Shown: positions 3,437 through 46,837 of the stretch, one piece after another
How positions within the stretch are numbered: position 1 is the stretch's first letter
How the letters are laid out: the number at the start of each line of letters is the position of its first letter
Source of the DNA: Methylobacter sp. S3L5C
GTDB lineage: Bacteria > Pseudomonadota > Gammaproteobacteria > Methylococcales > Methylomonadaceae
Length of the DNA stretch: 64,000 nucleotides
Assembly (NCBI RefSeq): GCF_022788635.1
Contig: NZ_CP076024.1
Coordinates: forward strand, 4,503,503-4,567,502
Direction: 5' to 3'
Made by a program: the position numbers and the translations under genes
Notes under the pieces: generated by a model
Told to the model about the DNA's origin: nothing
What the model saw: the letters and a program-made list of their open reading frames with translations, nothing else
Databases searched by the model: none

Positions 3437-3726
3437 TCCACCCCCGCCCACCCGTAAACCCTCCCTTGGTTGTTGCATGACTACCCTGCTTAACGGCAAG
3501 CTTGCCTTGCTTGCAGTGTTCACAGCAAAGGGTTTTCGGGCGTCGCGTGGGGGCGGCGATCAGGCGCTTACGCGCCAAAAAATAACCGCTAGTACAAATA
3601 AAAACTTATGCACAATTATTGTGTAAAAGCCTGTGTATATTTATCGTTATTAAACCGGAATCGCGCGTATTTACTGGGCTTTAGTTAAATTATGTAAATT
3701 CTGGCCAGCATTTAAAAGCCTGGTGT

Positions 3727-35487: not shown

Positions 35488-36345
35488 TCAAGCTTCCAGT
35501 ACAACGGTCGCTCTTAGCTTCTTCATGGCATTTTGCTCTAACTGCCTGATTCTCTCTGCCGACACATTGTAGCGCTCGGCAAGCTCATGTAATGTGGCTT
35601 TTTTGTCTGCCAGCCAGCGGCTTGACAGAATATCCAGGCTTCGCTCATCCAATCCCGCCATCGCCTCTGCCAATAAATCTTGGCCATGCCCTTCCCAGTC
35701 GGCATTTTCAAGCAAAACAGAAGGATCGGTGCCATGCTGCTGAAGATAGTTTGCAGGGTAGGCGTAACCGTCTTCAGAAGATTCGTCAACAGGCACATCA
35801 AATGACATATCCTGACTACCCAAACGTTTTTCCATTTCATAAACATCGCTAAGATCAACATTAAGATCTTCCGCAATAGCCATTGCTTCGTTGTTGGATA
35901 ACCAACCAATATCTTTTTTGGATTTACGTAGATTGAAAAACAATTTTCGCTGGGCTTTAGTTGTAGCAACCTTGACGATGCCCCAATTTTTAATCACATA
36001 CTCATGAATTTCAGCTTTAATCCAATGTACCGCAAAAGAGACCAGACGCACACCGACATCAGGATCAAAACGCTTAACAGCCTTCATCAAGCCAATATTA
36101 CCTTCCTGAATAATATCAGGCATTGACAGACCATAACCGCTATATCCTCTGGCAACATGAACAACAAAGCGTAAATTGGTCATAACCAATTCACGTGCCG
36201 CCTCTAAATCGCCGTCATCTCTAAATCTTAGCGTCAACTCACGCTCCTGCTCAGAGGTTAATCTGGGCATTTGCCGAACCAGATTTAAATAGGCGTCAAA
36301 TGTTCCAACTGATAAATTAACAGGTAAAGTCAATGCATTACTCAT
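35488..36345 (-). CDS. rpoH: Heat-shock sigma factor RpoH (sigma-32)
   Basis: 285 residues. Region 2 reads DIIQEGNIGLMKAVKRFDP, with the RpoH-box-like QRKLFFNLRKSKKDIG just after it (about 130-146), and region 4 is a C-terminal HTH (TLHELAERYNVSAERIRQLE). It directs RNA polymerase to heat-shock promoters. The order ftsE-ftsX-rpoH is conserved in gammaproteobacteria. An AGGAG ribosome site precedes ATG. A CIRCE-like palindrome lies 33 bases upstream, in the leader or promoter, suggesting an extra layer of HrcA control. Confidence 0.95.
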   Translation of the reverse strand: MSNALTLPVNLSVGTFDAYLNLVRQMPRLTSEQERELTLRFRDDGDLEAARELVMTNLRFVVHVARGYSGYGLSMPDIIQEGNIGLMKAVKRFDPDVGVRLVSFAVHWIKAEIHEYVIKNWGIVKVATTKAQRKLFFNLRKSKKDIGWLSNNEAMAIAEDLNVDLSDVYEMEKRLGSQDMSFDVPVDESSEDGYAYPANYLQQHGTDPSVLLENADWEGHGQDLLAEAMAGLDERSLDILSSRWLADKKATLHELAERYNVSAERIRQLEQNAMKKLRATVVLEA

Positions 36346-36424: not shown

Positions 36425-37444
36425 TTACTCCGACTTGGTATGCTGAAGCTGATACATCAGTACTGCCCATGAGCCCAATACTCCCAGTGCCGAAGAAATA
36501 CCTATCAATGCCAATGTTTGTGTGAAATCCAAAAACAACAAATGGAAGCTATCCCCATAAAGTCCTGACAGCTTTTCAACCGACTGCCTTAATACAAGCA
36601 TCAGCGTAGTCACAACAAACCATGCCGATACCCCTGAAATAAAACCAATCCAAAAACCTGTGTATAAAAACGGCCTTCGGATAAACCCGTTTGTCGCGCC
36701 GACCAATTTCGCAATCACTACCTCATCACGGCGAGTATGCAACTCCAGCCGTATGGTATTGCCAATAATAAACAACACAGCGCCACCCAACATCAGATTC
36801 AGCAATGTAGCAAATAGTCGCGCTACCGACATAATAGATTGCAGGCGCTCAATCCACTGCAAATCCATCTGGGCAAAATCGACTTCAGGCGATTGTTCAA
36901 AGCTTTTCAGTAAATCCTCAAGCCCTTGCTTATCTTCCAGACTATTCTTTGGTAGCACCTGAATGACAATAGGTAACGGATTTTCTTCCAATGCATTAAT
37001 AGCAGTACCAAAGCCACTATAAGTCTGAAATTCAGTCAACGCCTGTTTTCTGGAGATTATTTTAACGTCCTGAACATTCTCGTTCTGCCGAATGCTATCT
37101 GCCAACTTATTGGCATGCGCATCAGAAACATCATCCCTGAGAAACAAAGAGAGTTGATTGCTGGTTTCCAGATTACCCGTTAATTGCTGAAGATTGACTA
37201 CCAAAATATAAAAACCGCTCGCCAGTGAAATGGCAATAGCAAGGACCGCTATAGTCATTATCGACGTAAAAGGTGAAGCGACCAGACGACCCAGACTGGA
37301 AAACAAGGCATGTGCATGAAGATCCCGATAAGCCTTTATTTTATCGACAAAATTACCCCCTGCCGTCTTGGTTTGCCGAACATCAGTCCTGACCGACCTA
37401 ACCGGAATATCTTTCCTGATACGATTTTTATGATCTCGTTTCAT
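36425..37444 (-). CDS. ftsX: Cell division protein FtsX
   Basis: 339 residues. A long cytoplasmic N-terminus is followed by four membrane segments (FTSIMTIAVLAIAISLASGF; MLGGAVLFIIGNTIRL; FWIGFISGVSAWFVVTTLML; TLALIGISSALGVLGSWAVL), with the large periplasmic loop between the first two. FtsX is the membrane partner of FtsE and activates peptidoglycan hydrolases at the division site. It begins 3 bases after ftsE ends, so the pair is translated together. Confidence 0.94.
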   Translation of the reverse strand: MKRDHKNRIRKDIPVRSVRTDVRQTKTAGGNFVDKIKAYRDLHAHALFSSLGRLVASPFTSIMTIAVLAIAISLASGFYILVVNLQQLTGNLETSNQLSLFLRDDVSDAHANKLADSIRQNENVQDVKIISRKQALTEFQTYSGFGTAINALEENPLPIVIQVLPKNSLEDKQGLEDLLKSFEQSPEVDFAQMDLQWIERLQSIMSVARLFATLLNLMLGGAVLFIIGNTIRLELHTRRDEVVIAKLVGATNGFIRRPFLYTGFWIGFISGVSAWFVVTTLMLVLRQSVEKLSGLYGDSFHLLFLDFTQTLALIGISSALGVLGSWAVLMYQLQHTKSE

Positions 37445-37447
37445 AAG

Positions 37448-38104
37448 TTAACTCGACACCAATTGACCATGATCTATCTTTAAGACACGGTAATTTAGTT
37501 GTGTAATTAAAGAAATATCATGTGAAGCAATCAACACGGTAACACCGACCTGTTGAAACTGGGCAAACAAAAACATGATTTCTGCCGACAAATCCGGATC
37601 CAGATTGCCGGTTGGCTCATCGGCAATAATAATTGGCGGCTTGTTAACTACAGCCCTGGCAATACCTACCCGCTGCTGCTCACCACCTGACAAAGCCAGG
37701 GGATATTTTTTTTCTTTGCCCGTCAAACTGACCTTATCCAAAGCCGCCCTTACCCTACGAACGACTTCATGGTGCCCAAATCCGGCTATCACCAACGGTA
37801 AGGCCACGTTATCAAAAACCGTTCTATCATGAAGTAGCTTATAATCCTGATAAATAAAGCCCATTTTTCTTCTTATATAAGGCAACTGATTTTCTTTTAC
37901 CTGACCAAGATCTTGTCCATCCAATAATATCTGCCCTCGACTGCAGCGCTCCATGGTAGCAATTAATCGCAACAAAGTACTTTTCCCGGCTCCTGAATGA
38001 CCGGTAAGAAAAGCTATTTCGCCACGCTTTAAATGGAAACTGACATTACGCAATACGTCACCGGTATCAGGGTAACGTTTACTGACACTGACAAACTTTA
38101 TCAT
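37448..38104 (-). CDS. ftsE: Cell division ATPase FtsE
   Basis: 218 residues, an ABC ATPase of standard FtsE size: Walker A GHSGAGKST (about 35), Q-loop YQDYKLL, signature LSGGEQQRVGIARA (about 136) and Walker B IIIADEPTGNLD. With FtsX it couples ATP hydrolysis to cell-wall hydrolase activation during septation. It starts 6 bases after the ftsY stop, in the conserved ftsY-ftsE-ftsX-rpoH order. Confidence 0.95.
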   Translation of the reverse strand: MIKFVSVSKRYPDTGDVLRNVSFHLKRGEIAFLTGHSGAGKSTLLRLIATMERCSRGQILLDGQDLGQVKENQLPYIRRKMGFIYQDYKLLHDRTVFDNVALPLVIAGFGHHEVVRRVRAALDKVSLTGKEKKYPLALSGGEQQRVGIARAVVNKPPIIIADEPTGNLDPDLSAEIMFLFAQFQQVGVTVLIASHDISLITQLNYRVLKIDHGQLVSS

Positions 38105-38110
38105 GACTTT

Positions 38111-40057
38111 TTAGTCTTTTGTAAACAAGGCGTCAACAAACAACTCCGCATCAAAATCCTGTAAATCATCAATACCTTCCCCTATACCTATAAAACGAAT
38201 CGGAATGCCGGTATGTTTGGCTAATGCAAAAATAACACCACCTTTGGCCGTACCATCGAGCTTGGTTAACACCATCCCTGTTAAAGCCACTGTTTCATTA
38301 AACAGTTTTGCCTGAGACAAAGCATTTTGTCCGGTTCCGGCATCCAATACCAGTAACACTTCATGAGGCGCTTCCTGATCCAGCTTGCTCATAATTCTTT
38401 TTACTTTTTTCAACTCATCCATTAAATGAGCTTTTGTGTGTAACCGACCAGCGGTATCTGCGATCAAAACATCGATACCTTTAGCTTTTGCAGATTGCAG
38501 GGCATCATAAATAACCGATGCCGAATCTGCGCCGGTATGCTGGGCTACCACCTGAATATTATTACGCTCACCCCAAACTTGCAACTGTTCAACCGCCGCC
38601 GCCCTAAAAGTATCCCCGGCGGCCAACATAACACTATGACCTTGAGCCTGAAGACGTTTGGCTAATTTACCGATAGTCGTCGTTTTACCGGCACCATTAA
38701 CACCCACCACCAGAATAACAAACGGCGTGTCTTGTGCAGGTATTTGCAGAGGCAGACTGCAGGGCTTTATGATACCCAGCAATTCCTGTTTTAAAGCTGC
38801 CGACAAGGCAACTCCATCCTGCAACTGGTGGCGCTCAACACTTTGCGTCAAGTGTCTGATTATATCGGATGTCGCATCAAAGCCAACATCAGCCATCAGC
38901 AAACCGGCTTCAATTTCTTCCAGCAAATCATCGTTAATTTCTTTCTGGCCGATAGGCAAGCTGGCCAGCATTCCGCTAAGACCTGAGCGCGTTCGCTTTA
39001 ACTGTGAGGTAAGACGTAAATATAAAGACTCAGGTGCCGGCTCTACATAAACAGCTTCCTCAAAAACTTCTACAGGTACGGCAACGGCATCAGTTTTAAC
39101 GAATTTTTGTCGACGTTGTGTTTTTTTAGTAACGGGAATTTGTGTTTCAACCCACCCATATCGACTATAAAAACTGATGGCAATCAAAGGCAGCATCAAT
39201 AATATTCCAACGGCATGATGCGCCAAAACTGCCCAAACAGGCATACCCAGCTTAAGACCTATAATTGCCAAACCAAGCTGCATAAACAACAAGGCACCCA
39301 GCCATAAACCAGCTGCTCTTACCTGTTTTAACGAGTTTGTTAACGTTGCACTGAACATCAGTAAACTTAACAACAAAAAGCACAACAATGCGCCCACTCT
39401 ATGCAACCAGTTGGCCGCTACCTGTGCATCGAAGGAAATTACGCCGGTATAACCGGTAAACAAACCGTTAAATAAATCCAGTGCATTAAAATAATCGGCT
39501 TCAGGCCACCATTGCCCACTGCATTGAGGGAAGCCACTACAGGCCAACGCCGCATGATTGGCACTAACCCAGGCACCCAGAATAATCTCCAATACCAAAA
39601 TAACCATGGCAAAACGGGTAAAACCCACAAGCCCTCTACGCACCTGCCCTTTTACGTTGACCTGACCGGCTATTAACGGATTAACCCGTAAATACAGCCA
39701 AAAAAGCAGCCAAACAGTTAGCATACCCAGTAAGACATTAGTGACTATTACCACAGGCATATCGACTATTGCTTTAGCCCAAAAACCTAAAGCCGCTGAT
39801 AATCCGGCTAAAACCAGCAATATTAATGAGGATGTTACTGCGGCAAACCTGCAATGATGTTGCTGCCATGAAAACACCCCCAGCAACAAGACCACTAAAC
39901 CTGCTGTCGCCGTCAAATAAACCGGGATACTTCTTAAAATATCAACAAGGTTTTGATTAAATAACGCAGGATCAGCAGCAGACAGTCGAAACCATGAACC
40001 TGAAACAATCATAATTAACGTTAAAAAAACGCCAAATAAAGTTAACTTTCTAAACAT
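38111..40057 (-). CDS. ftsY: Heme A synthase-like (CtaA/COX15) - FtsY fusion
   Basis: One uninterrupted frame of 648 residues (652 from GTG 40069). Residues about 1-310 are a COX15/CtaA-like domain with about eight membrane segments: LGAWVSANHAALACSGFPQC, His in NWLHRVGALL and HH in VLAHHAVGILL. After a charged linker (about 310-340) comes a complete FtsY NG GTPase: GVNGAGKTTTIGKLAK, DTFRAAA, DTAGR, TKLDGTAKGG. No in-frame ATG, GTG or TTG occurs in the linker, so FtsY cannot easily be made separately. The N-terminal half of the CtaA part lacks the His pair and the Cys-x-Cys loop of active enzymes. FtsY is the SRP receptor; the fused membrane domain may anchor it. Confidence 0.9.
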   Translation of the reverse strand: MFRKLTLFGVFLTLIMIVSGSWFRLSAADPALFNQNLVDILRSIPVYLTATAGLVVLLLGVFSWQQHHCRFAAVTSSLILLVLAGLSAALGFWAKAIVDMPVVIVTNVLLGMLTVWLLFWLYLRVNPLIAGQVNVKGQVRRGLVGFTRFAMVILVLEIILGAWVSANHAALACSGFPQCSGQWWPEADYFNALDLFNGLFTGYTGVISFDAQVAANWLHRVGALLCFLLLSLLMFSATLTNSLKQVRAAGLWLGALLFMQLGLAIIGLKLGMPVWAVLAHHAVGILLMLPLIAISFYSRYGWVETQIPVTKKTQRRQKFVKTDAVAVPVEVFEEAVYVEPAPESLYLRLTSQLKRTRSGLSGMLASLPIGQKEINDDLLEEIEAGLLMADVGFDATSDIIRHLTQSVERHQLQDGVALSAALKQELLGIIKPCSLPLQIPAQDTPFVILVVGVNGAGKTTTIGKLAKRLQAQGHSVMLAAGDTFRAAAVEQLQVWGERNNIQVVAQHTGADSASVIYDALQSAKAKGIDVLIADTAGRLHTKAHLMDELKKVKRIMSKLDQEAPHEVLLVLDAGTGQNALSQAKLFNETVALTGMVLTKLDGTAKGGVIFALAKHTGIPIRFIGIGEGIDDLQDFDAELFVDALFTKD

Positions 40058-40068
40058 TTTATTTACCA

Positions 40069-40809
40069 CTATCCAATTTGTGAGATTCTAAGTAGATGCA
40101 TGAGATCATCTTTTACTTTATAGGTATTAAAACCCGGTTCATATTGCATCATTAAATTTCCCAAAGGATCTATCAACAACAACATCCCGTCAGGTAGGGT
40201 ACCTTTTCTGATATCGATAATTTTCCTGGCTAATTCCGCATTGGGTTTTACCCTGATCAGATCTGAATTAAGTGCAAATTCCCGATCTTCACTACCAATT
40301 AATTTTTCCGTTAGCGCTGAGTTTATTTTATTTTCTTCACGAAGCAAGCTCAAAAAAAGCGCATTATCTTCCTTGTTTTCTGTACGCCGCAGCCGCCATA
40401 AAAGCGTATCTTTTAGCCACCATTCATTTGCAATTTCCGCAGCAGGCTCTTTAAAAAGCATCACCACCCGACGTGTGCGTGGCAATTCCTTATTTAACAT
40501 CAGTCTTAATTGCTTGGTTTTAAGCAGTGCATCAAGGCAAATTTCATTACAACCGGTATTTGGAATGACATTAACGATTAACCAATGTCCGGCAAGCTCA
40601 CCCAGACTTTCAGTTGAAAAGGTATCAAAACCGGTAAAATCAGCTCGCTCAGTTGATATTGAAGGCATGATCAATTGCCCGATATTGGTTTTTCCTTTTA
40701 CCAACTCAGGATTTTCTTTCAGACCCCAGGCTATTAAAAAAGGAATAATGGTCATTCCAAAAATAACCAGAATTAATAATCGATTTTTTTTCTGTTGCTT
40801 AGTCATCAT
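40069..40809 (-). CDS. SCO-like cytochrome oxidase assembly-associated protein
   Basis: About 246 residues from ATG 40809 (MMTKQQKKNRLLILVIFG), which overlaps the SURF1 stop; longer versions would run antisense-like into SURF1. One N-terminal membrane anchor (LLILVIFGMTIIPFLIAWGL) is followed by a periplasmic thioredoxin-like region with GCNEICLD, a Cys-x3-Cys like the copper site of SCO proteins. This type of protein is typically found between SURF1 and CtaA in gammaproteobacterial cox loci. It probably helps deliver copper or assemble the oxidase; that is an inference from site and context. Confidence 0.72.
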   Translation of the reverse strand: MMTKQQKKNRLLILVIFGMTIIPFLIAWGLKENPELVKGKTNIGQLIMPSISTERADFTGFDTFSTESLGELAGHWLIVNVIPNTGCNEICLDALLKTKQLRLMLNKELPRTRRVVMLFKEPAAEIANEWWLKDTLLWRLRRTENKEDNALFLSLLREENKINSALTEKLIGSEDREFALNSDLIRVKPNAELARKIIDIRKGTLPDGMLLLIDPLGNLMMQYEPGFNTYKVKDDLMHLLRISQIG

Positions 40810-41539
40810 TTCTTTTAAAACTGTAGCCAATAAATAGTATTGTGAGCGTAAATGCCAGTGCAAACCATTGAACAGCATAGGCCGTATGTTGCTCTGGCAA
40901 CATAATTGTTGTTGTTTGCCATTCCCTACCAAAGCCTTCGGGAAGATCCTTATCCAGCTCTATCTGGAACGGGAATAAAGGATATTCCAGTTTCTTTGCC
41001 AAAATTTGACTATCGACCACCTGAAGAACGGAAGGCCAACCTTCTGTTGGTATTTCAGCCCCGGCTAATTTTATGCCAACAGCAGGAAACTGATTTATCC
41101 GTCCGCTTATCTGTGCTTGCTGACTCTTAAGCTGTATATCAGGCAAAACCGATCTAATCTTATTTAACGGAACCCAGCCCCTGTTAACCAGGACAGCGGT
41201 TGCCTCCCCTTCCAGAACAAACGGCGTCAACACAAAATAACCGGCTTTCCCGCCACTAATTTGATTATCGATCAAAAACTGATGCGCCTGATCATAATGC
41301 CCGGCTACTTGTACTTTTTTATACCTGAGCACGCCTACATCAATATCAACAGCAGATGATAACTGCATGACTTCAACAGAAGCCCGTCCTTGTTCTTGCT
41401 GCTCAAGAAATATCTTTTTCTCTTCTGACCGCCCTAGTTGCCACATCCCCAACGCCATCAATAACGGCAATAAACAACAATAAGCCAGCGTAGTGCCTTT
41501 TTTAAAGGTGAGTGAATAGCGTCCAATTTTAAAAATCAT
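40799..41539 (-). CDS. SURF1 family cytochrome oxidase assembly protein
   Basis: 246 residues. Two membrane segments bracket a periplasmic domain: TTLAYCCLLPLLMALGMWQL with the conserved GxWQL, and YAVQWFALAFTLTILFIGYSFK at the C-terminus. Family motifs VNRGWVP and the G-F internal YFVLTPF are present. SURF1 assists heme a insertion into subunit I. It starts the operon leading through the SCO-like protein into the CtaA-FtsY fusion. Confidence 0.92.
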   Translation of the reverse strand: MIFKIGRYSLTFKKGTTLAYCCLLPLLMALGMWQLGRSEEKKIFLEQQEQGRASVEVMQLSSAVDIDVGVLRYKKVQVAGHYDQAHQFLIDNQISGGKAGYFVLTPFVLEGEATAVLVNRGWVPLNKIRSVLPDIQLKSQQAQISGRINQFPAVGIKLAGAEIPTEGWPSVLQVVDSQILAKKLEYPLFPFQIELDKDLPEGFGREWQTTTIMLPEQHTAYAVQWFALAFTLTILFIGYSFKRNDD

Positions 41540-41621: not shown

Positions 41622-41879
41622 ATGATTATCAAAAGCGTCGTCATCATTGCCTTTATTCTGATAATTATCAGTCTCGGCTCAGCCCTGTTTCACTTGGTTA
41701 GCCATAAAAACCAAGAGTCATCGGAAAAAACAGTCAAAGCACTGACTTTTCGGATTACTCTTTCAATCCTGTTATTTGCTTTTATTTTTATTGCCCTGAT
41801 AACCGGGGCTTACAAACCTCAGGGACTGGGTATGCAAATGCACATGAAAAAACCGGTTCAGACTGATGCCATTAAATAA
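41622..41879 (+). CDS. DUF2909 two-membrane-segment protein
   Basis: 85 residues with two hydrophobic helices (VVIIAFILIIISLGSALFHL and TLSILLFAFIFIALITGAY) and a short basic loop between them, ending GLGMQMHMKKP. It matches the DUF2909/twin transmembrane family always found in cox gene clusters between coxC and SURF1. It is transcribed opposite to them and ends at a shared terminator with coxC. Likely accessory to oxidase assembly; mechanism unknown. Confidence 0.82.
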   Translation: MIIKSVVIIAFILIIISLGSALFHLVSHKNQESSEKTVKALTFRITLSILLFAFIFIALITGAYKPQGLGMQMHMKKPVQTDAIK

Positions 41880-41952: not shown

Positions 41953-42843
41953 TTACAGTAAGTAAACAAACACGAACAAACCTAACCATACGACATCAAC
42001 AAAATGCCAATACCAGGCAGCCGCTTCAAAAGCGAAGTGATTTTCTTTGGTAAAATGACCTTTCCAGCTACGAAACAGCACCACACTTAAAATAATGGCA
42101 CCCACGCAGACATGAAAGCCATGAAAACCTGTCAACATAAAAAATGTAGAGCCGTAAACACCTGAGCCTAAAGTCAAGCCCATTTCACTATAAGCCTCAT
42201 GATACTCAATCGCCTGTAGGGTAACGAACAAGAAACCCAAAGCAACAGTAATTATCAAGCCCTTGATTAATTGGCTGCGCCCCTCTTCCGGTGTCCTGAC
42301 AACACCTGGTTTTGGTGGCAATAAGCCATGATGTGCCCACGTGCAACTAACACCGCTGGTCAATAGAATCAAGGTATTCAAAAATGGCAAACCCCAAGCA
42401 CCCATGGGTTCGAAATCACCGCCAACCTTACCTGGACCATTCGTTGGCCATATCGCCTCAAAAGAAGGCCATAACAGCTCCTTAGTTGCGCCCTCACCCA
42501 ACCAGGGCACAGATAAATTACGGGTATACCACAAGGTACCGAAGAATACCCCAAAAAATATTATTTCAGAAAAAATAAACCACAACATACCCATACGGTA
42601 AGACACGCCTACCTGTTTGCTGTACATGCCGGTCTCACTTTCATGCGCTTGCAAGGCAAACCAACCCACCAACATGGCAACAAAGACCAGTAAACCAGCG
42701 ACCATCATGCCGGGGCCTATTGAAGAACCATTTAAATAGTTTGCAAATCCAGCCAGCATAATCATCAAACCAATCGTACCAATGATTGGCCAGGTCGCTT
42801 TATGAGGAATGTAATAAGCGGTATTTGTAGACATAAACTTCAC
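41953..42843 (-). CDS. coxC: Cytochrome c oxidase subunit III
   Basis: 296 residues with seven hydrophobic helices. Family motifs: YYIPHKATWPIIGTIGL, WFIFSEIIFFGVFF (the conserved Glu of subunit III), LLTSGVSCTWAHHGL, ALQAIEYHEA, FFMLTGFHGFHV and AWYWHFVDVVWLGLF. It stabilises the oxygen-reducing core of the aa3-type oxidase in the inner membrane. It lies 3 bases after ctaG and ends at a strong terminator, closing the coxB-coxA-ctaG-coxC operon. Confidence 0.95.
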   Translation of the reverse strand: MKFMSTNTAYYIPHKATWPIIGTIGLMIMLAGFANYLNGSSIGPGMMVAGLLVFVAMLVGWFALQAHESETGMYSKQVGVSYRMGMLWFIFSEIIFFGVFFGTLWYTRNLSVPWLGEGATKELLWPSFEAIWPTNGPGKVGGDFEPMGAWGLPFLNTLILLTSGVSCTWAHHGLLPPKPGVVRTPEEGRSQLIKGLIITVALGFLFVTLQAIEYHEAYSEMGLTLGSGVYGSTFFMLTGFHGFHVCVGAIILSVVLFRSWKGHFTKENHFAFEAAAWYWHFVDVVWLGLFVFVYLL

Positions 42844-42846
42844 CTT

Positions 42847-43398
42847 TTATTTTTTTACTGATTTTTCAGTATTGTCGAAATATGTGTATGACAGTGTAAT
42901 GGTATTGTATTCTTTAGGTAATTTTGGATTAATGGTAAAGCGCATCGGCAAAGTTTTGGTTTCTTGCGGCTTAAAGATTTGCTCATCAAAACAAAAACAC
43001 ATGATTTTTTCAAAGTAGCTACTGATAACAGCCGGTGAAAAACTCGGAATAGCTCTTGCCAATAAATCTTTGTTGGTTTTATTGGTCGCATAAAAATTGA
43101 CCGTATTATATTCACCCGGATGGACTTTTATCTGTTTTTTTTCTGCGCGAAATTCCATAGGCGTTGACTCATTGAGCATGGTAATAAACTCTACGGTAAT
43201 TTCTCTACTCAAATCAACTTCATAAGCAACCTCAGGGACTTTTTTAATATCATCAGGTCTATCCCGCTCTATCCATTTCCATTCACACAACACATCGTAA
43301 ATGGGTACCAGCGCATAACCAAAACCAAACATGGCCACCGCAATTACCAGCAAGGTTTTCGCTAATTTGGCGTTTTTCTTGCCGACACTCTCACTCAT
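42847..43398 (-). CDS. ctaG: Copper chaperone CtaG/Cox11
   Basis: 183 residues. One N-terminal membrane segment (TLLVIAVAMFGFGYALVPIYDVLC) is followed by a periplasmic immunoglobulin-like domain with IMCFCFDEQ, the Cys-x-Cys copper site, then PMRFTINPKLP. Cox11 delivers copper to the CuB centre of subunit I. Its start overlaps the stop of a 32-codon small gene (ATGA). Confidence 0.95.
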   Translation of the reverse strand: MSESVGKKNAKLAKTLLVIAVAMFGFGYALVPIYDVLCEWKWIERDRPDDIKKVPEVAYEVDLSREITVEFITMLNESTPMEFRAEKKQIKVHPGEYNTVNFYATNKTNKDLLARAIPSFSPAVISSYFEKIMCFCFDEQIFKPQETKTLPMRFTINPKLPKEYNTITLSYTYFDNTEKSVKK

Positions 43399-43493
43399 TG
43401 AGAAACGGCTTGCATCACCGCAAAAATATAAAGAATAAAGGCAATAGCCACCAAAATGACTGCCGTTAAAATATTTTTATTTTTTATTGTCAT
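43395..43493 (-). CDS. 32-residue single-helix membrane protein in cox operon
   Basis: A short frame, MTIKNKNILTAVILVAIAFI then LYIFAVMQAVSQ, encodes a basic N-tip and one membrane helix. Its TGA overlaps the ctaG ATG (ATGA) and it starts about 50 bases after coxA, so it is an operon member. Similar tiny proteins are annotated as cytochrome oxidase small assembly proteins between coxA and ctaG in proteobacteria. I assign it by size, position and topology, not by a motif. Confidence 0.7.
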   Translation of the reverse strand: MTIKNKNILTAVILVAIAFILYIFAVMQAVSQ

Positions 43494-43545
43494 ATATTAA
43501 TCGAGACATTGCCAACGTTGAGTCTGGCAATGTCTCTTTTATGCC

Positions 43546-45186
43546 TTAATGTGAGTCCAAAACGTGTTCAGTCGGCACAATCGCAGGCGGTGTCGTCCAG
43601 GTATGATAAGGAACCGGAGATGGCAGGGTCCATTCCAAGCCATGCTTGGCCGCATCTTCCCAAACCTCGTCAGTTACTTTTTCGCCAGTACCGCCTCTGA
43701 CAGTATCAATAACGATATACAAGAACAGCAATTGACTGGCACCAAAAATAAAACCGCCAATACTTGAAATCATGTTCCAATCAGCAAATTGCACCGCATA
43801 ATCAGGAATTCTGCGTGGCATACCTGCCAAACCTAAAAAGTGTTGCGGAAAAAACAATATGTTTACTGAAATAGCCGACAACCAAAAATGCAGTTGCCCG
43901 ATTTTTTCGTTATACATATGGCCGGTCCACTTGGGTAACCAGAAATATCCGGCAGCCATTAACATAAAAATAGAGGCTGGCACCAAGGTGTAATGAAAAT
44001 GCGCGACAATAAAGTAAGTATCATGGTATTGGAAATCTGACGGCGCAATGGACATCATTAAACCGGTAAAGCCCCCCATGGTAAACAACACTACAAAAGC
44101 AATCGAGAACAACATGGGCGTTTCAAAAGTCATTGCTCCATCCCACATCGTCGCTGTCCAGTTAAATACTTTAACACCGGTGGGTATGGCAATAATCATG
44201 GTGGCATACATAAAATACAACTCACCCGCCAAAGGCATACCGGCGGTGAACATATGATGCGCCCAAACAATAAAGGCCAGAAAAGCAATCGCACCAGTCG
44301 CCCAAACCATTGACGCGTAACCAAATAAAGGTTTACGGGCAAATATAGGGATAATGGTAGAAGCAACACCAAAAGTTGGCAAAATCATGATATACACTTC
44401 CGGATGCCCGAAGAACCAGAAAATATGTTCATAAAGTACCGGATCACCACCGCCCGCCGCATTAAAAAAGCTGGTATGGAAAAATTTGTCGGTTAACAGC
44501 ATGGTTACTGCACCTGCAAATACCGGCATAACAGCAATCAACAAGAAACCGGTAATTAACCAGGTCCAGACAAACAACGGCATATCCATCATTCGCATGG
44601 AAGGTGCACGCATATTGGTAATCGTGGCAATAATGTTAATGGCACCCATGATGGAAGAAATACCCAGCAAATGCACCGAGAACACGGCAAATGGTAAGGC
44701 TTTACCAACAGTAATCGGTTGCAATACCAACGGTGGATATAAAGTCCAACCACCATTAGGCGCACCACCTTCCATAAACAAGGTGCTGGCCAGCAATAAT
44801 ACACCGGCAACCAACAGCCAAAAGCTCATGTTATTCATGCGCGGCAAAGCCATATCGGCGGCACCAATCATTAACGGAATTTGCCAATTGGCCAACCCTA
44901 CAAAGGCCGGCATAACAGCACCAAACACCATAACCAGAGCATGCATGGTGGTCATTGAGTTAAAAAAAGCCGGATCAACAAACTGCAAGCCTGGTTCAAA
45001 CAATTCAGCCCGAATAACCATTGCCATGGCACCGCCAACAAAAAACATTGCCAGCGCAAACACCAGATACATAGTACCGATGTCTTTATGGTTAGTGGTA
45101 ACAATCCATCTTAAAATGCCTTTGGCAGGACCGTGATCGTGATGATCATCGGCATGATGATCGTGTTCATCTACGACAGCAGACAT
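43546..45186 (-). CDS. coxA: Cytochrome c oxidase subunit I
   Basis: 546 residues, twelve-helix heme-copper oxidase core of the aa3 type. Heme a and a3/CuB ligands are visible: MTTMHALVMVFG (His), FWFFGHPEVYIMILP (His-Tyr pair of CuB), WAHHMF (two CuB His) and DTYFIVAHFHYTL (heme a3 and a His). K-channel residues lie around the GHPEVY helix. The His-rich N-terminus (DEHDHHADDHHDHG) is unusual and might bind metal. It reduces O2 at the expense of cytochrome c and pumps protons. Confidence 0.96.
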   Translation of the reverse strand: MSAVVDEHDHHADDHHDHGPAKGILRWIVTTNHKDIGTMYLVFALAMFFVGGAMAMVIRAELFEPGLQFVDPAFFNSMTTMHALVMVFGAVMPAFVGLANWQIPLMIGAADMALPRMNNMSFWLLVAGVLLLASTLFMEGGAPNGGWTLYPPLVLQPITVGKALPFAVFSVHLLGISSIMGAINIIATITNMRAPSMRMMDMPLFVWTWLITGFLLIAVMPVFAGAVTMLLTDKFFHTSFFNAAGGGDPVLYEHIFWFFGHPEVYIMILPTFGVASTIIPIFARKPLFGYASMVWATGAIAFLAFIVWAHHMFTAGMPLAGELYFMYATMIIAIPTGVKVFNWTATMWDGAMTFETPMLFSIAFVVLFTMGGFTGLMMSIAPSDFQYHDTYFIVAHFHYTLVPASIFMLMAAGYFWLPKWTGHMYNEKIGQLHFWLSAISVNILFFPQHFLGLAGMPRRIPDYAVQFADWNMISSIGGFIFGASQLLFLYIVIDTVRGGTGEKVTDEVWEDAAKHGLEWTLPSPVPYHTWTTPPAIVPTEHVLDSH

Positions 45187-45241
45187 ACTTTATACCTCGA
45201 AAATAGTTAAAAAAGAGTCAGTAAATAAGTGCGTCAACCGC

Positions 45242-46369
45242 TTATTCATCATCATCGTCATCAGGAAGCGCCGTTTGCTTTGGCTGTAATGTATCACCGA
45301 CGCTATTACCCAAATTGTTACGGACATAAGTCATCACCTCTGCAAATTCCTTGCCATTCAACTTGGAAAAGGACGGCATTTTGGCGGTACCTGCACGCAA
45401 GAAGCCATCTAAAGACTCCCATTTTCCTGTCGCTATGACACTGCCTGTTAAAGCAGGAATTAAACCGGGAACACCAGCACCGTTAATCTGATGACAGCCG
45501 ACACAATTTTTTAAATATACCGATTGACCATGAGCCATTAACTGCTCACGACTTTGGTCACTCAAATCCGGTTTTTGTTTTTGTTGATCCAGGGTTTTCT
45601 TTACCCAGGCATCATAGTCAGGTTGCTCCATGGCAATTACTACGATAGGCATAAAGCCATGATCTCTTCCGCACAACTCAGTACATTGACCGCGATAAGT
45701 TCCGGCCTTATCGACAGATGCCCATGCTTCGTTAATAAAGCCCGGATTGGCATCTTTTTTCCAGCCTAAAGCAGGTACCCACCAGGAATGGATAACATCA
45801 CCTGATGTCAACACGAAACGTACTTTCTTGTTGACCGGAATCACTAAAGGTTTATCAACATTTAACAAATAATGGGGTACGGAACGAGGATCAGCACCAA
45901 CCGTTCGATGCGTTATTTCACTCGCTTCATCCAAATGACTTTCAAAATGAATATCATTATCCAGATATTTGTAATCCCAATACCATTGTCGGCCGGTTAC
46001 TTGAATCGTCATATCCGACTTTGCAACATTATCCAATTCCAACATGGTTTTTGTTGCAGGTATGGCCATACCAATCAAAATCAGGGTTGGAACAATTGTC
46101 CAGATGATTTCAACAGTGGTATTTTCATGAAATTGTGCCGCTTTATGTCCTTTCGATTTACGGTGATGGTAAATCGAGTAGAACATGGTACCAAATACAC
46201 CGATACCTACGATTACACAGATCCATAGAATCAGCATATGCAGGTCATAAATGTCATTACTGACCTTTGTAACCCCTTTCGTTAAATTGAGCGTATAGTC
46301 CGCCTGCGCTGCTCCTAGCCCTAAAGCCATTAAGATCAGACCTGCGAATAGTTGCTTTGCTTTGTTCAC
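45242..46369 (-). CDS. coxB: Cytochrome c oxidase subunit II with cytochrome c domain
   Basis: About 375 residues from GTG 46369 (GAGG 8 bases upstream, then a signal peptide LFAGLILMALGLGAAQA). Two membrane helices are followed by the CuA domain (HSWWVPALG then CTELCGRDHGFMP: the two Cys, His, Met and Glu ligands) and a C-terminal fused cytochrome c (CVGCHQ, about residue 296, axial Met in KMPSF). The fused heme accepts electrons from soluble cytochrome c. The frame is open upstream to 46432, but the GTG start gives a normal signal peptide. An acidic DDDDDE tail is present. Confidence 0.94.
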   Translation of the reverse strand: MNKAKQLFAGLILMALGLGAAQADYTLNLTKGVTKVSNDIYDLHMLILWICVIVGIGVFGTMFYSIYHHRKSKGHKAAQFHENTTVEIIWTIVPTLILIGMAIPATKTMLELDNVAKSDMTIQVTGRQWYWDYKYLDNDIHFESHLDEASEITHRTVGADPRSVPHYLLNVDKPLVIPVNKKVRFVLTSGDVIHSWWVPALGWKKDANPGFINEAWASVDKAGTYRGQCTELCGRDHGFMPIVVIAMEQPDYDAWVKKTLDQQKQKPDLSDQSREQLMAHGQSVYLKNCVGCHQINGAGVPGLIPALTGSVIATGKWESLDGFLRAGTAKMPSFSKLNGKEFAEVMTYVRNNLGNSVGDTLQPKQTALPDDDDDE

Positions 46370-46837
46370 GGAGCAGCCTCTTCGATAGTAGTTATAAACT
46401 CTTGTAAGTGTTATATCGTTTCGCAACTTCAAGTCAACAAATCAGTTTGACTCGATCCATTTGCGTAATAATTATTACAAAAAACCCTAGAAAGTCTAAC
46501 CTATGAAGTCTATCTATACCAGCGGTCCTTTTTATGCCTTTAAATTGATACAAAAAAAAAGCTTATGAAACAATACAGTATTAAGATTTTTTGTTAGCAC
46601 AAAATTATTGTCATCTACTAAAACCATCCGTCTAAAAGATACTCAAACCCTCAATAAGCAGTTAACTTTCTTTTTTAACCATGCTCAATCTTATCCAAAT
46701 AAAATGCTGTCTTCATTATTTGCCAAACCGATACATATCCTCAATATCCACACAATTAAATCCCTCCTTTTTTATAAACTCTGTGTCACGTGTACACCAA
46801 CTTTGTAAAAAAGCAAGACATGCCCGTAAAGTCAATG
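46370..46837. other. Intergenic stretch upstream of coxB
   Basis: AT-rich, presumably carrying the cox promoter. Open frames near 46608-46995 on the plus strand lack ribosome sites and family features. I could not point to a single convincing promoter. Confidence 0.4.

Follow-up and report, generated by a model that had tools for sequence, protein, structure and literature searches.

The window analyzed here, a 64,000-nucleotide stretch of the genome of the gammaproteobacterium Methylobacter sp. S3L5C (NZ_CP076024.1, positions 4,503,503 to 4,567,502), carries on its minus strand an uninterrupted reading frame (38111-40069) that encodes an eight-helix domain similar to the heme A synthase CtaA/COX15 followed, in the same frame, by a complete FtsY, the GTPase receptor of the signal recognition particle (SRP). 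Such a fusion had been proposed from the DNA sequence alone (the original prediction), and both the single frame and the domain identities were borne out by family matches: in Pfam, COX15-CtaA (PF02628) with 93.3 bits (cut-off 29.9), SRP54_N with 43.9 bits and the SRP54 GTPase with 258.4 bits, and in NCBIfam, the FtsY equivalog TIGR00064 with 363.4 bits (cut-off 260.7). The gene had been drawn over the entire frame; the frame stands, but its outermost start, a GTG at 40069 (652 aa), is probably not the true one, and an ATG four codons inside it, at 40057 (648 aa), is favored. This ATG aligns with the first methionine of most relatives (Met in 97% of 147 fused proteins, one per genome, picked for having both parts in a single frame), which is a lean and not a proof given that the starts of these relatives were chosen by a script, partly by a downstream motif. 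The fusion is the sole FtsY of the genome (4.8 Mb, one contig, 100% complete), the remaining two SRP54-type matches being Ffh (567.5 bits, cut-off 473.2) and FlhF (271.5 bits, cut-off 174.15), and because it is the only one, it presumably works as the SRP receptor. The nearest named relative in the collection, with 94% identity, is Methylobacter psychrophilus Z-0021.

The fusion is not confined to this genome. Within the genus, a match was detected in 35 of 35 genomes, with the whole protein encoded in one frame in 30; among the remaining five, two are cut but span the junction (G022 and G018; G and L numbers are our handles for genomes and sequences, f and g numbers our codes for families and genera), and three are fragments (G003, G020 and G033). 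Within the family, 228 of 237 genomes gave a match at E 1e-55 or better, and the frame spans the junction in 222 of the 228, the exceptions being the same three fragments, two more (G143 and G175), and G165, in which the frame breaks just before the FtsY N domain (L276, about 3495-3505; a draft assembly; either an error or a true frameshift). In families f3-f7 of the order, the junction is spanned in 52 of 54 genomes (these counts and those for the family were listed by hand from the match rows and then recounted); G291 shows a frame break with part of FtsY missing, and in G278 no FtsY was found. The FtsY homologs of Methylococcales, to which the original prediction had pointed as a check, are thus CtaA-fused nearly throughout these families. 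A frameshift or sequencing error in the linker, which by that prediction would refute the fusion, is ruled out because hundreds of related assemblies carry the junction in one frame; with nothing in its favor except the oddity of the fusion, and with low ratios of nonsynonymous to synonymous substitutions (dN/dS) on both sides of the junction between the window protein and L007, an artefact through frameshift or a lost stop has practically no chance of being the explanation.

Separate genes were found in families f2 and f8. In six of the eight f2/f8 genomes searched, FtsY is encoded completely in a frame of its own (343-367 aa); in one it is cut by a contig end, and in one it was not found. 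CtaA frames standing by themselves (325-350 aa) are listed for 15 of 20 f2/f8 genomes, with no match or no row in the list for the remaining five. Relatives in which the two genes are separate, which the original prediction had counted against the fusion, therefore exist, but those detected belong to f2/f8 and have the pre-fusion gene order described below. Beyond the order, the CtaA part was covered, among the matches listed for a class sample of 370 genomes, by only four rows, all from Methylococcales, with no other row starting before residue 308; of the 397 genomes of a phylum sample, 122 matched at E 1e-100 or better, and the CtaA part was covered in two, both Methylococcales (in both samples, distant fusions scoring below these limits would escape). 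In E. coli genomes, no place covers 80% of the gene, and the three listed rows match the FtsY part only. Judging from these sequence matches, the fusion appears to be an order-level trait, seen in most of the Methylococcales families examined (six families). From the class sample, five FtsY frames of unusual length were inspected, and none was accepted as a fusion: L258-L261 contain an FtsY-like start (MFGF...) inside a frame that is merely open upstream, L262 has an ordinary start followed by a long acidic repeat, and a hydrophobic peak is seen in one of the five only, in the upstream part of L260.

Comparison of the gene orders suggests how the fusion might have arisen. The unfused order, seen in f2 (L136, L137 and L139) and f8 (L138), is M16-peptidase genes, ftsY, ftsE, ftsX, rpoH and, facing the ftsY-rpoH genes, ctaB, ctaA, a PA0111-like gene, SURF1 and the cox genes, with extra DNA between some of these genes in L138 and L139. 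In f5 (L150), the order is coxB, coxA, cox3, SURF1, the PA0111-like gene, ctaA-ftsY, ftsE, ftsX, rpoH, ctaB in reverse orientation and the M16-peptidase genes. Inverting the ftsY-ftsE-ftsX-rpoH-ctaB segment converts the unfused order into the fused one, and both ends of this segment are kept in L150, the only one of the seven compared fused loci (the window, L150, L255, L250, L144, L110 and L098, that is, those with sequence past an rpoH that follows ftsX) in which ctaB lies beyond rpoH. In a tree of the FtsY part, the fused and separate states are accounted for by one change, which fits a single origin of the fusion; the support is weak near the separate sequences (49), the tree covers the FtsY part alone, 53 of its 150 inner branches were drawn open, and several rows are long. 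Because separate genes are the rule outside the order, they can be taken as the ancestral state. An inversion in an ancestor of most Methylococcales would then have fused ctaA, by its 3' end, with the 5' end of ftsY, and an eight-helix anchor, apparently with both ends in the cytoplasm, would have taken the place of the lipid-binding start of FtsY.

The FtsY half shows 58% identity to E. coli FtsY (7o9h_B) over 300 structure-aligned residues; the sequence match to E. coli FtsY 5gad_l begins at residue 332 and that to the NG+1 construct 2qy9 at residue 350 (652-aa numbering). It thus resembles gammaproteobacterial FtsY (E. coli, TIGR00064) in having a complete NG GTPase and the alpha-N1 helix, in which R348, L349, L353, T356 and R357 are invariant in 76 fusions (an alignment separate from that of the 147 proteins), and the neighborhood ftsY-ftsE-ftsX-rpoH is likewise the one seen in the unfused f2/f8 loci. 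The A-domain with its basic alpha-A1 helix, a feature of the E. coli type that is not universal, is absent, and the CtaA-like domain is found there instead; the separate f2 FtsY of L136 begins with MFGFGKKK. Whereas E. coli FtsY is a peripheral protein, the fusion would be an integral one, with eight predicted membrane helices in place of the A-domain, so that the permanent membrane embedding envisaged by the original prediction follows from the helix prediction. E. coli FtsY is described as making a weak first contact with the membrane via alpha-A1 and a second, activating contact via alpha-N1; a transmembrane tether can stand in for the first contact provided that the receptor is not pre-activated, and tethered FtsY without alpha-N1 fails in vivo (PMC5533587). 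According to the same single-molecule study, a loose first contact protects the accuracy of targeting, and any tether uncoupled from activation could substitute for it; another paper cites a functional transmembrane-tethered FtsY (PMC2780400). The fusion shares this tethered architecture: alpha-A1 is gone, and an integral anchor, a flexible linker and a conserved alpha-N1 are present.

As the original prediction noted, the linker contains no in-frame ATG, GTG or TTG in the window; this holds between the last helix and alpha-N1, and the first in-frame start after the last helix is an ATG at residue 363, which has no Shine-Dalgarno-like 4-mer. The precursor could nevertheless be cut in the linker after insertion, or FtsY could be started internally, which would yield a separate CtaA-like protein plus free FtsY and reduce the fusion to a mere expression unit. 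Cleavage to free FtsY is conceivable given the weak conservation of the linker (mean modal frequency 0.40 in 102 sequences with non-intact catalytic residues) and its disorder in the model; furthermore, in 19 of 147 relatives, the linker has a possible start codon with a Shine-Dalgarno-like 4-mer before alpha-N1, and a title cited in PMC5533587 (Weiche 2008) refers to the N-terminal anchor of E. coli FtsY as cleavable. Conversely, 49 of the 147 relatives have no start codon at all in this part of the linker and only 8 have an ATG (these counts and the dN/dS values come from an earlier alignment, with the linker and the cited pairs outside the 10 starts changed later), the frame and an even number of helices outlast large deletions in the N-half, and it would be odd for the enzyme half to decay and the anchor to be kept if the latter were cut off. 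We consider such separation distinctly improbable, and the gene most plausibly gives one polypeptide.

The CtaA half has fared unevenly. Residues are numbered here after B. subtilis CtaA, with C35, C42, C191, C197 and H216 given the numbers that we take them to have in that protein. E57, H60, H123 and H278 appear in the CtaA residue table of PMC8239418; there, the C-terminal bundle is described as binding heme b via two histidines and the N-terminal bundle as seemingly catalytic, the first-loop cysteines, needed in B. subtilis and absent from some CtaA types, as important for activity and the third-loop ones as not. The model of the window protein contains eight helices at high confidence (residues 2-26, 35-63, 70-96, 101-124, 141-166, 209-237, 244-269 and 274-299), and there are eight hydropathy peaks; all matches listed by a fold search with the whole model are FtsY/SRP54-type chains, as the FtsY domain fills the list. 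Compared with CtaA/COX15 of type 1.1 (the type with two cysteine pairs), the likeness extends to the eight helices in two bundles, the histidine pair of the C-half (His219 and His280 in the window), cysteine pair 2 and the place in the cox operon; the differences are the FtsY at the C-terminus and an N-half in which the positions of Glu57, His60 and His123 are occupied by a gap, Pro and Asn and cysteine pair 1 is absent. All four separate f2/f8 CtaA proteins that were aligned have intact catalytic residues.

Across the 147 fused proteins, the N-half residues are frequently lost (C35 is present in 104, C42 in 103, E57 in 52, H60 in 101 and H123 in 94), and the E57-H60-H123 triad is complete in 45, whereas the C-half residues are nearly constant (C191, C197 and H278 in 146 each, H216 in 145, all four in 145). 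The four C-half residues are kept in 100 of the 102 proteins without the full triad and, where both N-half histidines are gone (34 proteins), in 33; G230 and G179 are the two proteins that do not keep all four. On the tree, the fewest changes are 17 for the triad, 7 for cysteine pair 1, 1 for cysteine pair 2 and 2 for the C-half histidine pair. The eight positions of the CtaA part that are invariant in the 76 fusions (G161, C173, P177, C179, P185, H219, R220 and H280, in window numbering) all lie in the C-half, and dN/dS between the window protein and L007 is 0.237 for the N-half, 0.087 for the C-half and 0.065 for FtsY. Because the heme-b half is strongly conserved while the catalytic half decayed, FtsY in window-type lineages would probably sit on a disulfide-stabilized bundle that holds b heme and no longer makes heme A. 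Alternatively, the C-half could anchor FtsY passively; its histidines and cysteines would then be retained because the bundle needs them to fold, and the fusions of the degenerate lineages would bind no heme. This would agree with the persistence of the fusion in two lineages without the histidine pair or the cysteine pair, with the E. coli experiments in which FtsY needs only an anchor (PMC5533587, PMC2780400) and with the constancy of P177 and G161, which have no known role in heme binding and are as highly conserved as His219 (all 0.98 in the 102 triad-less sequences). The leading positions among the 300 CtaA-domain columns in these sequences are, however, H280, C179 and C173 (0.99), and the retention of all four residues in all but one of the proteins that lost both N-half histidines likewise argues against passivity, so that we treat the passive anchor as a doubtful alternative, albeit one of some weight.

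Two sets of relatives bear on these subjects. In L227 (G179) and L238 (G230), the C-half heme-ligand histidines or the cysteine pair are lost, which makes them natural tests of the importance of heme to FtsY. Members of genus g26 (L165, L167, L172, L173, L177, L179, L180, L182 and L185-L187) encode shortened fusions of about 564-570 aa, in which part of the N-half is missing, the C-half heme residues are retained and there are six membrane helices instead of eight (two by hydropathy, one modeled); the helix number being even in both forms, FtsY is expected to stay on the same side.

The genome of the window encodes a second CtaA elsewhere (about 332 aa, L148:7515-8513). In all 13 such proteins examined (L148 and L263-L274), E57, H123 and the C-half histidines are present, Asn replaces H60, and cysteine pair 2 is missing, a pattern similar to type 1.3 as described in PMC8239418; in bacteria with this H60N protein, heme A synthesis may depend on such a type 1.3-like CtaA. 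No other PF02628 match was found in 10 of the 147 fused genomes, and in 8 of these 10, the triad of the fusion is intact (four genomes of genus g21, 94-99% complete; G308, 94%; G096, G129 and G292, 78-85%), the other two being G004 (65% complete) and G307 (85%). Among the 137 genomes with another CtaA, the triad is intact in 37. These sequence patterns fit a dual-function protein in some lineages. A further observation concerns G249 (f2, 73% complete, 5% contamination), which has three standalone CtaA matches on three contigs.

Taking together the frame, its spread, the difference in gene order, the conservation pattern and the predicted helix count, we consider it likely that the gene encodes a membrane-integral SRP receptor whose anchor was once a working heme A synthase and, in the window protein, probably only holds heme b. 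The single polypeptide would be permanently integral; its anchor would keep the GTPase near the membrane via the flexible linker of about 40 residues, replacing the weak first contact through alpha-A1, and the retained alpha-N1, judging from its conservation and the published E. coli experiments, would provide the second, regulated contact, by which the receptor is activated. At the outset, the anchor would have doubled as a functional heme A synthase, a role that it probably retains where the domain is intact and no other CtaA is encoded; in window-type lineages, which have a second CtaA, the catalytic half has decayed.

Several observations weigh against this interpretation or narrow it. The linker is poorly conserved and, in the model, disordered, with the possible starts in 19 relatives mentioned above, and the frame breaks of G165 and G291 both fall just before the N domain. 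G230 and G179 have lost C-half heme or cysteine residues, so not every fused FtsY needs heme, and the C-half is not always the more constrained one (for L200/L201, dN/dS is 0.115 in the N-half and 0.234 in the C-half). That the second CtaA makes heme A is itself an assumption because His60 is Asn in 13 of 13, and the association between being the only CtaA and having an intact domain (8/10 against 37/137) has too small a number of independent pairs to be tested along the tree. Finally, the link to ftsE-ftsX-rpoH is not universal because it is lost or unseen in several f4 loci (after the fusion, L249, L253, L143 and L145 showed no ftsE and L254 no rpoH) and because rpoH is at another place in L149 (f3).

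A regulatory role of the heme might also be envisaged, whereby redox state, oxygen or heme supply would act through the bundle on SRP-dependent insertion. In many branches, the heme site has persisted beyond the loss of the catalytic residues, and the gene stays beside SURF1, usually in the cytochrome oxidase operon where the sequence extends that far; yet, the linker would be a poor signal path because it is long, variable and disordered, and the site is absent from two lineages. A heme-responsive FtsY thus seems improbable to us. The broader proposition, that a heme-bound SRP receptor, its bundle a former heme A synthase with heme b still in place, couples the respiratory heme or redox state to co-translational insertion and that, in some lineages, the sole heme A synthase is also the sole SRP receptor, is speculative and rather unlikely.

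Precedents exist for parts of this arrangement. In Streptomyces, FtsY has an N-terminal transmembrane segment and so is likewise naturally integral (PMC5853079), although through a hydrophobic segment as opposed to the complete, enzyme-derived eight-helix domain of the window. The engineered 3L-Pf3-FtsY carries a permanent tether in place of the first contact and is functional when alpha-N1 is present (PMC5533587), and the fusion of Zelazny 1997, as cited elsewhere, is an engineered tethered FtsY of the same kind; these tethers are artificial, whereas the natural fusion occurs in six families of one order. The CtaA fusions seen in PMC8239418 and PMC9145763 are with CtaB, not FtsY, and the word "FtsY" is absent from the main texts of these two papers on the diversity of CtaA and oxidase assembly. 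A CtaA-FtsY fusion was not found in the literature searched (titles and abstract openings among the matches listed, with subscription papers, preprints and supplements outside the search). The peripheral SRP receptor of the textbooks is E. coli FtsY, and six families of one order apparently ran the tether-replacement experiment naturally, retaining the regulated alpha-N1 helix. The route would be from enzyme to anchor: the catalytic half decays many times and the heme-holding half stays, and therefore the role of heme is directly testable. For genome annotation, the "FtsY" and one "CtaA" of fused genomes are best treated as a single protein, and a CtaA match in such genomes is no proof of heme A synthase activity.

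The surroundings of the fusion in the window are summarized in Table 1. The neighbors with family matches, coxB, coxA, cox11, cox3 and SURF1 upstream and ftsE, ftsX and rpoH downstream, uphold the original reading that a cox-side operon and the ftsE-ftsX-rpoH operon are joined through one polypeptide. The label "SCO-like" given there to the gene between SURF1 and the fusion did not hold: this gene has no Pfam match and matches only the PA0111 redox-disulfide family, below threshold (40.3 bits, cut-off 230). It is poorly conserved, with 27-34% identity to the f2-f8 counterparts.

Table 1. Features of the ctaA-ftsY locus (window coordinates; residues of the 648-aa protein)
Feature	Position	Strand	Basis
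rpoH	35488..36345	-	TIGR02392
ftsX	36425..37444	-	TIGR00439
ftsE	37448..38104	-	TIGR02673
ctaA-ftsY fusion gene, 648 aa (probable start)	38111..40057	-	frame, Pfam/NCBIfam, Met alignment of relatives
FtsY NG GTPase domain, residues 368-648	38114..38956	-	
FtsY alpha-N1 membrane-targeting helix, residues 343-367, conserved among fusions	38957..39031	-	
Linker, residues 300-342, no in-frame start codon, low model confidence at 305-334	39032..39160	-	
CtaA-like C-half, helices 5-8, residues 141-299, heme-b type bundle	39161..39637	-	
His280 codon (His278 equivalent, heme-b ligand by homology)	39218..39220	-	
His219 codon (His216 equivalent, heme-b ligand by homology)	39401..39403	-	
Cys179 codon (Cys197 equivalent, cysteine pair 2)	39521..39523	-	
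Cys173 codon (Cys191 equivalent, cysteine pair 2)	39539..39541	-	
CtaA-like N-half, helices 1-4, residues 2-124, without equivalents of Glu57, His60, His123 and the first cysteine pair	39686..40054	-	
PA0111-like protein gene (earlier "SCO-like")	40069..40932	-	sub-threshold family match
SURF1	40799..41539	-	Pfam
cox3, cox11, coxA and coxB genes	41953..46432	-	family matches

A possible link of the fusion to methanotrophy was explored through PF02461, which was found in 52 of 80 genomes; no conclusion could be drawn because its scores follow the family codes and genomes without PF02461 occur on both sides. The AMO/PmoA-family genes of f2/f8 (G237-G254 and G309-G310) score below most of those of the fused families and perhaps represent a different monooxygenase. 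Within the cox operon of the window, a gene for a small membrane protein of the DUF2909 family lies on the opposite strand (41622-41879, plus), a position that is retained at many fused loci and some unfused ones.

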